Assembly: GCA_019744975.1 (NCBI GenBank) | Contig: JAIETP010000014.1 | Coordinates: 248,001 to 312,000 of the forward strand | DNA length: 64,000 nucleotides | DNA from: Burkholderiales bacterium | GTDB taxonomy: Bacteria; Pseudomonadota; Gammaproteobacteria; Burkholderiales; SG8-41 | Direction of reading: 5' to 3' | Part shown: piece after piece, positions 1,037-7,816 of the stretch | Numbering within the stretch: the stretch's first letter is position 1 | How the letters are laid out: each line of letters starts with the position of its first letter | Made by a program: the position numbers and the translations under genes | The notes under the pieces: generated by a model | Told to the model about the DNA's origin: nothing | Databases searched by the model: none | Seen by the model: the letters and a program-made list of their open reading frames with translations, nothing else

Positions 1037-2920
1037 ATGGAAACCGACCCGCGTCTGAAACAGTCCCGCGCTGCACTCACCCTCGCCGCACTCGGCATCG
1101 TCTACGGCGACATCGGCACCAGCCCCCTCTACGCCGTCAAGGAAACCTTCGCGCCCGGCCACGGCATTCCCCTGAGCACTGAAACCATCACCGGCGGCAT
1201 CTCGGCGATTTTCTGGGCACTGATGCTGGTGGTGTCATTGAAGTACGTGGTGCTGATCATGCGCGCCCACAACAAGGGCGAGGGCGGCATCATGGCGCTG
1301 CTGGCACTGGCCTCCTCCGCCTGCAAAAACAATCCCCGCCAGTACGCCGCGATCCTGTTCGCGGGCCTGGCGGGTGCGGCACTGTTCTACGGCGACGCGG
1401 TGCTGACCCCCGCAATCTCGGTGCTCTCCGCGGTCGAAGGCCTGGAAATCGGCACCAGCGCGTTCAAACCCTATGTGCTACCGATCGCCATCGCCGTGCT
1501 GATCGTGCTGTTTTCATTCCAGCGTTACGGCACGGCGCGGGTCGGCGCCCTGTTCGGCCCCATAGTCATCCTGTGGTTCCTGGCACTCGGCGCCGCGGGC
1601 ATCCACGGCATCCTGCAGGCCCCCGCCATCCTGCAGGCGCTGAACCCCGCGCATGGTTTCGCGTTTGTGACCCAGCATGGCATTGCCTCTTTTATCGTGC
1701 TCGGCGCGGTGCTGCTGGCTTTCACCGGCGCCGAGGCGCTGTATGCCGACATGGGCCATTTCGGCAAACAGGCGATCCGCATTGCGTGGTTCAGCCTGGT
1801 GTTTCCGGCGCTGGCGCTGAATTACCTGGGCCAGGGCGCGCTGCTGATCATCAATCCAGCGGCCGTCAGCAATCCCTTTTACCTGCTGTATCCGCAGTGG
1901 GCGCTGTATCCGATGGTGGCGCTGGCCACCGCCGCAACAGTCATCGCGTCGCAGGCAACGATCTCCGGCGCCTATTCACTGACGCGACAGGCAATCCAGC
2001 TCGGTTACCTGCCGCGCATGAGCGTGCTGCAGACCTCGGCGAAGGAAATGGGCCAGATCTACATGCCGGCGGTGAACTGGATCCTGCTGGCGGTGGTGCT
2101 CGCCGCGGTGGTCGGTTTTGGCAATTCCTCCAGCCTCGCTTCGGCCTATGGCGTCGCCGTCACCGGCACCATGCTGGTCACCACCTTCCTGACGTTTTTT
2201 GTGATCCGTTATGTCTGGGGTTACAACCTCGCGCTGTGCATCGCCGCCACCGGCTTTTTCATTCTGCTCGACCTGGCGTTTTTTTCATCGAGCCTGCTGA
2301 AGATCAGCAGTGGCGGCTGGTTCCCGCTGGTGCTGGGCGCGATGATGCTGGTGGTGATGCTGACCTGGCATCGCGGCCGGCGCATCCTGGCCGAGCGTCT
2401 GCAGACTTCGGCCATTCCGGTGCAGGAATTTCTGGCGTCATTGTTCAAGTACCCGCCGCACCGGGTGCCGGGCACCGCCGTGTTCATGGTCGCCAACCCC
2501 GACGCGGTACCGCATGCGCTGCTGCACAATCTCTCGCACAACAAGGTGCTGCACGAACGCGTGGTGATCCTCACCGTGACCATCGCCGACACACCCTGGG
2601 TGCCGTTCAACGAACGTGTCAGCGTGGAATCGCTGGGCAACGGCTGCTGGCGCATCCGCATGCGTTTCGGCTTCAAGAATCCGGTCGACGTGCCGCAGGC
2701 GCTGGCGCTGTGCTGCGAACACGGCCTCGCATTCGAGATGATGGAAACCTCGTTTTTCCTCAGTCGCGAAACGCTGATCCCCGTCATCGGCGAGGGCGGC
2801 ATGGCGCTGTGGCGGGAACGCCTGTTTGCCGCCATGGCGCGCAATGCCAGCAGCGTGGTCGAATATTTCCACCTGCCGGCCAATCGTGTGATTGAACTGG
2901 GTACGCGAATAGAGATTTAA
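1037..2920 (+). CDS. kup: Kup/KUP-family potassium uptake protein
   Basis: A 627-residue polytopic inner-membrane protein of the KUP/HAK/KT family, proton-coupled low-affinity K+ uptake. The family signature [15 protein letters not shown] is at about residues 20-34. It is followed by about twelve hydrophobic segments to about residue 455, then a soluble C-terminal domain of about 170 residues, matching the usual Kup size of about 620-630. ATG 1037 is preceded by a good AAAGGAGG site. The TAA stop shares bases with the stop of the convergent soxA-like gene (2917-2920), so the two transcripts meet tail to tail without a visible terminator. Confidence 0.95.
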
Positions 2921-3756
2921 CGACGGACGCCCGGCGTTTCTACGGTGAGCCCCGCGGCACGCCGGGCCAGATACAGCTCCAAGTCGAGCAGTTCATCGGA
3001 ACCATAAGCCGGCATCACCGCGCGCACACCGTAATAACAGGCGCGCAGCCGGCGGTGCAGCGAACCGGTGGCCTGCCATTCCAGGCGATACGCCGGATAG
3101 GCGTTGCCATGGCCCTCGCTGATGGTTTCAGCCAGCAGTTTGCGGCCCGCGTTCTGTTCGTGGCAGTTCACACAGGCCAGGTTCATCTGGCCTTGACGGC
3201 GATAATAGATTTCGCGGCCACGTTCGAGATGCGGGCGGTTGGCGGCATCCGCTGTCACGGCCAACGGCATGCCGCGCGACTGGTGCGCCACGTAAGCGGT
3301 CAGCGCCAGCAATTCTTCCGATTCGTACTGCAGCGGATCAGCACTCTGGTTACGCTCACGACAGCGGTTGATGCGGCCTTCGATGTTGACGAGTTTGCCG
3401 CTTGCAACATCGATGCGCGGATAACCCGCGGCAATACCCTTCATGCTGGATGCGGCGTCCCGATGGCAAGCGGCGCAGGACTTGTTGCTGCGGCCCGCCG
3501 CCGTGTTCCACAGTTTTTCACCGCGCGCGACCCACAGCATGCCGGGATTGGCAAAATCATCCGCCTGCATCGCGCGGATATCGGCACCGGCATAGGCGAT
3601 GCCGGATTTGGGTGCCGGCAGGCGCTGCGCTTCAGCCGCAAACACGCCGCCGCCCAGCGTTGCCGCAAACATCAGGACGATGGGTGGCAGAAAATTCAAG
3701 CGCTTACGGTGATCGCCGCCCGCTCGGACCCACGCTCGCCGGAATCGTCCACCCAC
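2917..3756 (-). CDS. soxA: SoxA-type dihaem cytochrome c (L-cysteine S-thiosulfotransferase subunit)
   Basis: Periplasmic SoxA: with SoxX it normally attaches an inorganic sulfur substrate to the SoxY cysteine. Two haem sites are visible, CAACH (94-98) and CVNCH (195-199), plus the active-site cysteine Cys240 in RACYYGVRA and Cys132 in the INRCRERN segment, so this is the dihaem class. The N-terminus contains RKR then a hydrophobic stretch ending VFAAEA, a Sec signal. The start is uncertain: GTG 3756 (279 aa) overlaps soxZ by about 60 bp, while TTG 3699 overlaps only the soxZ stop but loses the basic residues of the signal peptide. It is the last gene of the iorAB-soxXYZA operon. Confidence 0.9.
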
Positions 3757-4016
3757 TCGAACACGAATTCACCGCTGGCCTCGGCCAGCGCATGAAACTG
3801 CAGCAATGGGTTTGCCGACATGCCGGAACCCATCTCGGCGCGAAACACTTCGACGCCGTTATAGCGGCACACCAGGTTGTTGATGACGTTCTTCGCAATG
3901 CGCCGGCCAAAATTGTCGGGACGGTAGCCGGTTTCCATCGGATGCTGAATGGCAATGCGCAGCAGGATGATTTCACCGCGCCGTGCCTGCCGCGGCACTT
4001 CGATCCGGGCCAGCAT
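3696..4016 (-). CDS. soxZ: SoxZ sulfur-carrier partner protein
   Basis: A 106-residue SoxZ: an immunoglobulin-like, leaderless periplasmic protein that pairs with SoxY and is exported with it. Recognisable family segments are IEVPRQARRGE near the start, IQHPMETGYR, and [20 protein letters not shown]. It contains one Cys, in NLVCRYNG. ATG 4016 is preferred over TTG 4022, because ATG lies two bases after the soxY stop with a GGAGGG site ten bases upstream, inside the soxY tail. Adjacent to soxY in the usual Y-Z order. Confidence 0.95.
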   Translation of the reverse strand: MLARIEVPRQARRGEIILLRIAIQHPMETGYRPDNFGRRIAKNVINNLVCRYNGVEVFRAEMGSGMSANPLLQFHALAEASGEFVFEWVDDSGERGSERAAITVSA

Positions 4017-4018
4017 GC

Positions 4019-4468
4019 TCAACCGCCCTCCAGGCAGGCGAGTTCCGTGACCACCACCCTGGCGCCACCCATCCAGTACGAACCATCGGACATTTGCGCC
4101 AGTGCGAGCACCTCCTGGTTATCGGCCAGCCGGATACGGGTGACAACCTGTGCCCGGCCCGAATACGCGCCAAGGGTGAATTTAGCAACGATCGGTCGGG
4201 GATTGCGCTCGGCAATCACGGTGATGCTGCGTACATGATCGGCTGCGGTCATCGGGCTGTCGACCGCGATGCGCACCGGCACTGCATGCCCGTTATCGGC
4301 CAGTTCCGGCGTATCGAAGGTCACACGGCCGGGCCGCACCGCGGCGCCACCGGTGATCTGGCGCAACAGGGCTTCCCGTTCAGCCGGCGCCTGCGCGCGT
4401 ACGCCTCCCGCCAGCGTGATACCGGCAAGTGCACTTAATGTAAAAAGGAAACGGCGACGGGTGGCCAT
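4019..4468 (-). CDS. soxY: SoxY sulfur-carrier protein with atypical C-terminal arm
   Basis: SoxY carries sulfur intermediates covalently on a cysteine near its C-terminus. This 149-residue protein has a Tat-type signal (MATRRRFLFTL...VRAQA) as expected for SoxYZ export, and the SoxY body (PVRIAVDSPMTAADHV, NPRPIVAKFTLG, DGSYWMGGARVVVTE). The carrier arm is odd: the classical SoxY ends GGCGG, here the protein ends ELACLEGG. Cys145 is the only cysteine in the protein, so it must be the attachment site if the protein is functional. The DNA was re-read at 4019-4060 and shows no frameshift creating this tail. Co-transcribed with soxX, soxZ and soxA. Confidence 0.88.
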   Translation of the reverse strand: MATRRRFLFTLSALAGITLAGGVRAQAPAEREALLRQITGGAAVRPGRVTFDTPELADNGHAVPVRIAVDSPMTAADHVRSITVIAERNPRPIVAKFTLGAYSGRAQVVTRIRLADNQEVLALAQMSDGSYWMGGARVVVTELACLEGG

Positions 4469-7145: not shown

Positions 7146-7154
7146 TCTCCGGTC

Positions 7155-7652
7155 TTAGGCGTTTTGTTGATCGGAAGTCAGCGCATCGGCACTGCCCACC
7201 TTGGTATTGCCGGCGGCAATGTGCACCGCGGCACGGATTCGGTGATAAGTACCGCAACGGCAGATATTGGACATCGCTTCGTCGATGTCCTTGTCCGTGG
7301 GTTTGGATTTTTTGGCAAGCAATGCAGCGGCCGCCATGATCTGGCCCGACTGGCAGTAACCGCACTGTGGCACGTCGATCGCCGCCCAGGCCTTTTGCAC
7401 CGGGTGCGAACTGTCCTTGGACAAGCCTTCAATGGTCGTAATCCTGTCGCCCGCCTTGATGGCACTGACCTGAAGCGCACAGGAGCGCACCACTTCACCG
7501 TTCAGGTGTACCGAGCAGGCGCCGCACTGGGCCACGCCGCAACCGTATTTGGTGCCGGTCAGGCCGACTTGTTCGCGGATCACCCACAGCAGCGGGGTAT
7601 CGGGTTCGACATTGACATCATGCGAACGGCCGTTGATGTTCAGTTGGGGCAT
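7155..7652 (-). CDS. [2Fe-2S] subunit of molybdenum hydroxylase (IorA-like)
   Basis: The 165-residue iron-sulfur subunit that passes electrons from the Mo centre of its partner. Two [2Fe-2S] clusters are readable: the plant-type [14 protein letters not shown] with a later RSC, and the helical-domain CGYCQSG plus [10 protein letters not shown]. The length fits the IorA/CoxS/XdhC-small class. No signal peptide is seen; it would be exported as a passenger of the Tat-tagged large subunit. ATG 7652 is chosen because AGGAG lies directly upstream. It is the first gene of the operon. No separate cytochrome c subunit follows, which leaves SoxX/SoxA as possible electron acceptors. Confidence 0.92.
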
Positions 7653-7787
7653 GTTTACTCCTCGCGTTGACTTTTGGCTGCGCAAAACCATGCGCTCACC
7701 GCCGCACGGTAACTGGAATTCCCCGGAATCGTTGTAATGCCGCAGTCGAATGCCGCGGTGAAACGCGTCTGTTCGCGTCGTTGCGCA

Positions 7788-7816
7788 GATTATGCCGGCA
7801 CCCCGAAATCGTCAAC
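7788..7816 (-). promoter_or_regulatory. Sigma-70-type promoter of the iorAB-soxXYZA operon
   Basis: On the minus strand, TTGACG (7816-7811) and TAATCT (7793-7788) are separated by exactly 17 bases. This gives a transcript with a leader of about 130 bases ahead of the [2Fe-2S] subunit gene. The 251-base gap between mtgA and this operon holds no other obvious element. Confidence 0.6.

Follow-up and report, generated by a model that had tools for sequence, protein, structure and literature searches.

A sox cluster coupled to genes for a molybdenum (Mo) enzyme has been described once in print: in the available passages of that account, Starkeya novella carries a second sox cluster, soxX2Y2Z2A2F2, together with a xanthine-oxidase-family Mo enzyme (Snov_1975 to Snov_1982; Kappler and others 2013, PMC3797975). 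Here we analyse an operon of this kind in Burkholderiales bacterium GCA_019744975.1, on contig JAIETP010000014.1 at positions 248,001 to 312,000 of the forward strand; this whole stretch of 64,000 nucleotides is referred to as the window. Genes for an IorAB-like Mo enzyme are followed there by soxX, by a soxY paralog that we call soxY', and by soxZ and soxA. Because the same gene set was published for S. novella in 2013, the arrangement is not new; we find the module to be real, widespread and apparently functional. Compared by its published description, the Starkeya operon likewise combines soxXYZA with genes for a xanthine-oxidase-family Mo enzyme and lacks soxB and soxCD, and that genome too has an ordinary sox cluster at another site, but the Starkeya operon includes soxF2 flavocytochrome genes, of which the window operon has none. 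Bradyrhizobium diazoefficiens has two soxY homologs, of which only soxY1 is essential for thiosulfate oxidation according to the available part of the report (PMC5748708), and we infer that its soxY2 is SoxY'. Among the open-library titles, abstract openings and passages searched, no function has been assigned to a Mo-linked sox cluster.

SoxY' co-occurs with one subfamily of IorB far more tightly than with SoxB, and the window sox genes form a specialised, paralogous set that the genome carries in addition to an ordinary one. The explanation that we prefer, with a probability of roughly 0.4, is a second periplasmic Sox-type system, independent of SoxB and built round a cytochrome-linked Mo dehydrogenase. 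All six genes are on the minus strand, tightly packed between 7652 and 2917:

7155 to 7652, minus strand: iorA-like [2Fe-2S] small subunit, 165 amino acids (aa) from ATG 7652, with the open reading frame (ORF) open to 7691
4935 to 7145, minus strand: iorB-like molybdopterin large subunit, 736 aa
4486 to 4926, minus strand: soxX, mono-heme cytochrome c (TIGR04485, 75.7 bits)
4019 to 4468, minus strand: soxY' carrier paralog (TIGR04487, 164.1 bits; TIGR04488, 93.7 bits)
3696 to 4022 (TTG 4022), or starting at ATG 4016, minus strand: soxZ (TIGR04490, 80.9 bits, cut-off 76)
2917 to 3699, minus strand: soxA, di-heme, 260 aa from TTG 3699, with the ORF open to 3756
7653 to 7903, minus strand: mtgA/iorA intergenic region, presumed by its position to hold the promoter

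All six genes named in the original prediction are present, and profile matches place each in its stated family. The start of iorA is most likely 7652, where GAGGAGTAAAC precedes the ATG. The gaps of 9 (iorA/iorB), 8 (iorB/soxX) and 17 bases (soxX/soxY') are as first described, and so is an overlap of soxZ with soxA, which amounts to 4 bases if soxA starts at TTG 3699, from where it opens directly on a putative signal peptide; the 2-base gap given for soxY'/soxZ holds only from the ATG start of soxZ, and the TTG start gives a 4-base overlap. The six genes had further been said to follow one promoter, and this did not hold up: a scan of 2700 to 8200 returned 2 promoter-like sites against a shuffle mean of 1.8, neither of them upstream of iorA on the minus strand. 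With no promoter-like site above chance, a single transcript, as judged from strand and spacing, is likely rather than established. The flanking genes are kup, which is convergent, and mtgA-aroE, which lie on the same strand as the operon.

Absence of soxB and soxCD, part of the original prediction, proved true of the operon but not of the organism. The operon contains neither, and no flavocytochrome gene (iorB and soxX are only 8 bases apart, and the neighbours are mtgA and kup). Elsewhere in the host genome (3.69 Mb, 44 contigs, 99.28% complete), an ordinary soxY-soxZ-soxA-soxX-soxB cluster lies on another contig (L042:8115-12237), with a SoxY that ends in GGCG and a SoxA with one CxxCH, and a third contig (G000:C5) encodes a SoxCD-like pair, made up of a SoxC-family protein (613 bits against a cut-off of 420) and a c-type cytochrome. 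These two loci rule out that the organism lacks soxB and soxCD. There are two SoxY proteins in the genome, one per cluster, and because of the ordinary cluster the window set is not a lone broken sox system.

The carrier protein is one of the features that set the window operon apart from a canonical Sox system (SoxXA, SoxYZ, SoxB, SoxCD). Its best model is TIGR04487, 'SoxY-related AACIE arm protein' (SoxY_para_1), at 164.1 bits against a cut-off of 172, and the score against the true-SoxY model TIGR04488 is below the cut-off of 125. Whereas the family arm is ACIE, the window arm is ACLE, with a score under the family cut-off; that cut-off is exceeded by relatives in 8 of the 61 genomes of our close set (the window's own genome and 60 relatives) and by Bradyrhizobium japonicum (L134), with 204 and 227 bits reached. 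SoxY' has a twin-arginine start and the C-terminus VVVTELACLEGG, with an invariant Cys145. Instead of the GGCGG swinging arm it reads ELACLEGG, and the general SoxY' pattern is A-C-x-[E/D], with the carrier cysteine kept. SoxY rows were sorted into 16 ending in GGCG or GGCGG, 3 fused, and 125 remaining (103 distinct); the first ending is our definition of canonical SoxY, hence its occurrence in 16/16 is by definition. The carrier cysteine is present in 103/103 distinct paralog-type sequences, and an acidic residue at Cys+2 in 101/103. Twenty further SoxY loci comprise 15 with GGCG/GGCGG endings, 3 fused SoxYZ, the SoxY' of Microvirga (L199), and L196, which ends in PACVES and was grouped with the paralogs; L196 is a further SoxY of the SoxB-less Microvirga massiliensis (G358) with a second paralog-type arm.

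A parallel case of a SoxYZ-type protein whose gene accompanies that of a periplasmic dehydrogenase is TIGR04557, the quinoprotein dehydrogenase-associated SoxYZ-like carrier, as described in the available part of its source (PMC12997753). That carrier is a fused SoxYZ that goes with pyrroloquinoline quinone (PQQ) enzymes, however, and against its model (cut-off 140 bits) SoxY of the window scores 67.4 bits and SoxZ 41.5 bits. Nothing on the AACIE-arm paralog was found with the terms searched in a study of SoxY expansion (PMC11237559), and a literature search for the 'AACIE' arm gave no title concerning SoxY.

The original prediction supposed that the Mo enzyme belongs with the Sox proteins, and this is borne out across genomes. 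SoxY' occurs in 34 of the 61 genomes of the close set, in all of which (the window's and 33 others) it was read directly and its arm inspected; G022, which has a TIGR04487 match of 92.5 bits and SoxB on the same contig, was left out of this count. The IorB subfamily, set at 830 bits or more against alignment A1 with fragments included, occurs in 35/61, namely all 34 SoxY' genomes plus G009 (p = 2e-16), where a 3.5-kb contig with iorAB ends just after soxX. SoxB, called at E 1e-80, is found in 40/61: 27 of the 34 SoxY' genomes and 13 of the 27 others (Fisher p = 0.015). Relatives share ancestry, so the genomes are not independent trials and a family-level count is the fairest; in a set of 24 genomes from the order's other families, SoxY' and the IorB subfamily occur together in 6 and are both missing from 18 (p = 7e-6), and SoxB is found in 3 of the 6 with SoxY' against 8 of the 18 without (p = 1.0). 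SoxB was not found in seven of the 34 SoxY' genomes (G008, G010, G019, G034, G041, G048, G052), which are 79 to 99% complete, six of them above 90%. Nor was it found in 6 of 18 genomes picked for SoxY' or IorB (G135, G278, G198, G245, M. massiliensis and Noviherbaspirillum sp. Root189), and in G135, G278 and the Noviherbaspirillum no SoxY other than SoxY' was found at E 1e-6. These counts show that SoxY' is tied to the Mo enzyme and can do without SoxB.

At phylum scale (299 genomes, results read by eye), SoxY' reaches 162 bits or more in 13 genomes, each of which has an IorB of at least 1050 bits, and 2 more genomes have IorB alone; at most 3 IorB candidates were scored per genome, so IorB may be undercounted. 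Ten more genomes match TIGR04487 at 112 to 144 bits without an IorB of 1050 bits. We tentatively read this class as canonical SoxY because the one match of this size that was inspected, the second SoxY of G346 (L190), ends in GGCGG. Distances between IorB and SoxY' are correlated over 71 linked loci (r = 0.909, with 0 of 999 permutations as high), to which we give little weight, as the value is uncorrected for the species tree and some contigs appear twice. One same-order genome of about 2 Mb (G349) has three copies of the IorB subfamily (L164, L165, L166), two of them with no sox genes found nearby.

A survey for the six-gene order, proposed with the original prediction, found it kept in both Alpha- and Betaproteobacteria. 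Figures for named loci refer to the best 80 of 408 such loci, 29 of which are from Bradyrhizobium. The iorB gene is present at 60 of the 80; 11 of the remaining 20 lie near a contig end and 9 lack iorB within about 7 kb. The commonest layout, iorA-iorB-flavoprotein-soxX-soxY'-soxZ-soxA, occurs at 35 of 120 loci, some of whose contigs are present twice. The flavoprotein inserted between iorB and soxX in Bradyrhizobium and its relatives matches flavocytochrome-c sulfide dehydrogenase domains, and of the 80 named loci 41 carry its gene, 38 of these being alphaproteobacterial. Genomes of the window's genus usually have the window layout, in which the flavoprotein gene is missing and aroE-mtgA lie upstream. 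Four contigs of the set (L105, L109, L117, L151) duplicate others. Nine of the 80 named loci are labelled Bordetella, on metagenome bins under the name Bordetella parapertussis; L082, L090 and L151 match contigs from the window's genus or family in length, and the labels look wrong.

A conventional sox cluster beside this one in related strains, with iorAB unlinked, had been named as an observation that would tell against a joint system. The genome does have conventional sox genes at another site, and seven of the 34 SoxY' genomes, all of the window's family, carry soxXY'ZA downstream of mtgA without adjoining iorAB; the conventional cluster is not adjacent, however, and IorB is still present in each of the seven, where a subfamily member lies on another contig (G021, G025, G027, G028, G029, G034, G035). 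For G021, G025 and G027 this is the only subfamily IorB found; the other four have, in addition, iorAB linked to soxY'Z. G033, where soxY' is at a contig end, was left out of the unlinked count. In an IorB tree (FastTree, local support), computed without the IorB fragment of G025, 6 of the 7 unlinked IorBs fall in a 26-row clade with the window and 17 sox-linked rows; L082 to L097 were left out of the tree and of the distance correlation as duplicates. Genes for TctC, the receptor of tripartite tricarboxylate transporters, adjoin either unlinked iorAB or else soxXY'ZA or soxY'Z in several relatives (L171:10853-11842, L175:7126-8259, L102:8604-9575, L114:7796-8797), and these neighbours might point to a carboxylate-type substrate.

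The Mo enzyme itself has the features of a xanthine-oxidase-family IorAB pair in its molybdopterin domains, two-cluster cysteines, glutamate and fold. IorA matches the Pfam domains Fer2_2 (101 bits) and Fer2 (35 bits), has eight cysteines for two [2Fe-2S] clusters (38, 43, 46, 58, 97, 100, 131, 133), and shows no evident export signal. IorB matches MoCoBD_2 (118 bits) and MoCoBD_1 (100 bits) and carries a twin-arginine (Tat) motif, SRRKFL, at 15, in agreement with the original prediction of a Tat-exported hydroxylase. Its GGVGE at 697-701 supplies the catalytic glutamate, E701, and both G700 and E701 are invariant across 26 aligned subfamily rows. MoCoBD_2 matches IorB (4935-7145) in two stretches, the best at 39-203, ahead of MoCoBD_1, an order that we take to be permuted relative to xanthine dehydrogenase. 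The nearest solved structure is 8gy3_C (sequence E 5.2e-79; fold TM 0.83), the membrane-bound aldehyde dehydrogenase of Gluconobacter oxydans, yet at only 27% identity; models were single chains, with mean pLDDT of 75.5 for IorB and 84.9 for SoxY'. The 8gy3 enzyme presumably has its own cytochrome subunit, whereas the window operon encodes none such. A two-subunit organisation with a Tat motif on the large subunit is shared with IorAB-like periplasmic dehydrogenases such as isoquinoline 1-oxidoreductase and the deoxyribose dehydrogenase of Pseudomonas simiae, for which a cytochrome c is the presumed acceptor (PMC6365646). The available part of that account mentions no Sox carrier, whereas the window operon encodes no cytochromes other than SoxX and SoxA; as its sole c-type cytochromes these could accept the electrons, as had been suggested.

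SoxX and SoxA in turn have what is expected of canonical Sox proteins, a mono-heme SoxX and the SoxA heme motif and cysteine. SoxX exceeds its TIGR04485 cut-off of 61 and has CLLCH at 59, with CxxCH in 32/32 aligned rows and Met108 in 31/32. SoxA, scored on the longer ORF, reaches 239.3 bits against TIGR04484 (cut-off 110); its heme motifs, CAACH and CVNCH, are both kept in 30 module rows, and Cys132 and Cys240 in 31/31 rows including a canonical one, in an alignment from which a 3-aa fragment (L056) was left out. The solved structure nearest to it is the di-heme SoxA 1h31, with a cysteine of which Cys240 aligns; from the SoxA literature, we take Cys240 to be the catalytic heme-ligand cysteine. 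What the operon shares with canonical Sox is the cysteine and hemes of SoxXA, the carrier cysteine of SoxY, and SoxZ; it differs in having no SoxB or SoxCD, in its arm, and in being tied more tightly to a Mo hydroxylase than to SoxB. Given the conserved heme motifs, SoxA cysteines and Mo-hydroxylase glutamate, the machinery looks catalytically intact and the system active.

For the SoxB-independent system that we prefer, we suggest the following course. A reduced sulfur compound, probably an organic one, would be joined oxidatively by SoxXA to the arm cysteine of SoxY', and IorAB would oxidise a carbon in the organic portion of that compound, whether still bound or already released, at an aldehyde or activated C-H. 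SoxX/SoxA or a different c-type cytochrome would receive the electrons via the two [2Fe-2S] clusters, and sulfane sulfur left on SoxY' would be removed by the flavocytochrome-c-type protein where present and otherwise by other means. SoxB and SoxCD would not be needed, in this proposal, because no sulfate is released on the SoxY' carrier. The substrate may be organosulfur or carrier-bound, as in the original prediction. In favour of the preferred explanation as a whole we count the co-occurrence of SoxY' with the IorB subfamily, the genomes in which no SoxB was found, the conserved SoxY' and SoxA cysteines, the flavoprotein gene at 41 of the 80 named loci, the soxY1 result in B. diazoefficiens (PMC5748708), an aldehyde dehydrogenase as nearest solved relative of IorB, and an iorAB-like enzyme that oxidises deoxyribose, presumably with a cytochrome c as acceptor (PMC6365646). 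A more specific form, in which SoxXA captures an organic thiol on SoxY'Z and the Mo enzyme oxidises it, splitting carbon from sulfur, in an old branch common to the whole IorAB subfamily in Alpha- and Betaproteobacteria, is one that we would put forward only tentatively and think rather doubtful.

Several observations weigh against the preferred explanation. We know of no xanthine-oxidase-family enzyme that acts on protein-bound sulfur compounds. Over all 61 genomes SoxB is commoner where SoxY' is present; the association is weak, and the case for SoxB independence accordingly rests on the SoxB-less genomes and the 24-genome set, but in 27 of the 34 genomes the SoxB of the other cluster could still serve SoxY'. 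Six loci have iorAB-soxY'Z with no soxXA found beside them (L064, L066, L069, L076, L114, L124; L061 and L078, near contig ends, were not counted), one genome (G245) has a subfamily IorB with no sox gene found nearby, and another (G198) has iorAB-soxXA with no SoxY found in the genome. In the available passages on Starkeya, the SoxAX and SoxYZ of the second cluster went undetected, one flavocytochrome subunit was seen in small amounts, cells on thiosulfate, methanol or glucose expressed the cluster very weakly, and the authors suggested that it may be without functional significance or have a role under conditions untested there (PMC3797975). The G198 locus (L167, G198:C1) has the order iorA-iorB-soxX-soxA; the genome is one contig of 5.4 Mb in which no SoxY was found at E up to 1e-6, and its Mo enzyme may be served by SoxXA with no SoxYZ carrier involved. 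A longer operon is found in G135, with a mono-heme cytochrome (CSGCH) after iorB (L176:9812-10156) and, after soxA, a LysR-type helix-turn-helix protein of 118 aa (L176:13473-13829) that looks ModE-like.

The operon could instead oxidise inorganic sulfur, SoxXA loading SoxY'Z with sulfide, polysulfide or thiosulfate and IorAB replacing SoxCD to oxidise the bound sulfane sulfur. The kept cysteines and heme motifs of SoxXA and SoxY suit this idea, as do the sulfide dehydrogenase flavoprotein gene of the Bradyrhizobium version and the presence of SoxB in 27 of 34 SoxY' genomes; we nevertheless think it unlikely, as known IorAB chemistry acts on C-H bonds, the nearest IorB structure is an aldehyde dehydrogenase, and SoxB was not found in the other 7. 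What the available parts of the sources report, that soxY1 alone is essential for thiosulfate oxidation in B. diazoefficiens (PMC5748708) and that the Starkeya cluster is barely expressed on thiosulfate (PMC3797975), also speaks against it. The Sox proteins might alternatively maintain the enzyme, and this too we consider rather unlikely: SoxXA and SoxY'Z would carry periplasmic sulfane sulfur that restores the sulfido ligand of Mo, and the enzyme would oxidise an ordinary aldehyde or heterocycle. Xanthine-oxidase-family Mo enzymes need a terminal sulfido ligand and can lose it, but the ligand is normally inserted before export. Such a role would fit a SoxY' that tracks the IorB subfamily much more tightly than SoxB, would not require SoxB or SoxCD, and could draw sulfane sulfur from the product of the alphaproteobacterial flavocytochrome-c gene; a SoxYZ-like carrier also accompanies PQQ alcohol dehydrogenases, which are likewise periplasmic (PMC12997753, available part). 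It is harder to square with the iorAB-like deoxyribose dehydrogenase, which works without sox genes reported in the available part of its description (PMC6365646), with the iorAB-soxXA of G198, where no SoxY was found, and with a second iorAB-like pair in the window's own genome (L043:6900-9652, G000:C4), whose IorB is 29% identical and near which no sox gene was found. An ORF next to this second pair (L043, 5905-6864) looks TctC-like by eye.

It is improbable, in our view, that SoxXA does no more than accept electrons from an ordinary dehydrogenase of aldehydes or heterocycles, with soxY'Z a relic. SoxX and SoxA are the sole cytochromes in the operon, iorAB-soxXA without SoxY exists (L167), and the 8gy3 enzyme, as we understand it, also has a cytochrome c partner; IorAB-like enzymes with a presumed cytochrome c partner are described in the available part of PMC6365646. 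Set against these are the invariant SoxY' cysteine (103/103 distinct sequences) and the six distinct iorAB-soxY'Z loci with no soxXA found beside them, given which the carrier does not look like a relic. That two unrelated transcription units lie side by side by chance is very improbable: part of the family does have iorAB apart from soxXY'ZA, and no single promoter is detectable, but the order is kept in Alpha- and Betaproteobacteria, iorB is present at 60 of the 80 named loci, and SoxY' and IorB are retained in the same genomes. Chance adjacency of iorAB and the sox genes is contradicted by that order and co-occurrence.

The genomic link of this module is unusually clear, and the chemistry that we propose for it hypothetical. 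Its tight co-occurrence with one Mo-enzyme subfamily marks a distinct, retained system, in contrast to the published suggestion that it may have no role. If the substrate is organic sulfur, Bradyrhizobium and uncultured Burkholderiales would have in this module a further periplasmic route for turning over organosulfur compounds. A further implication is that counts of soxXYZA in metagenomes may overstate thiosulfate oxidation.

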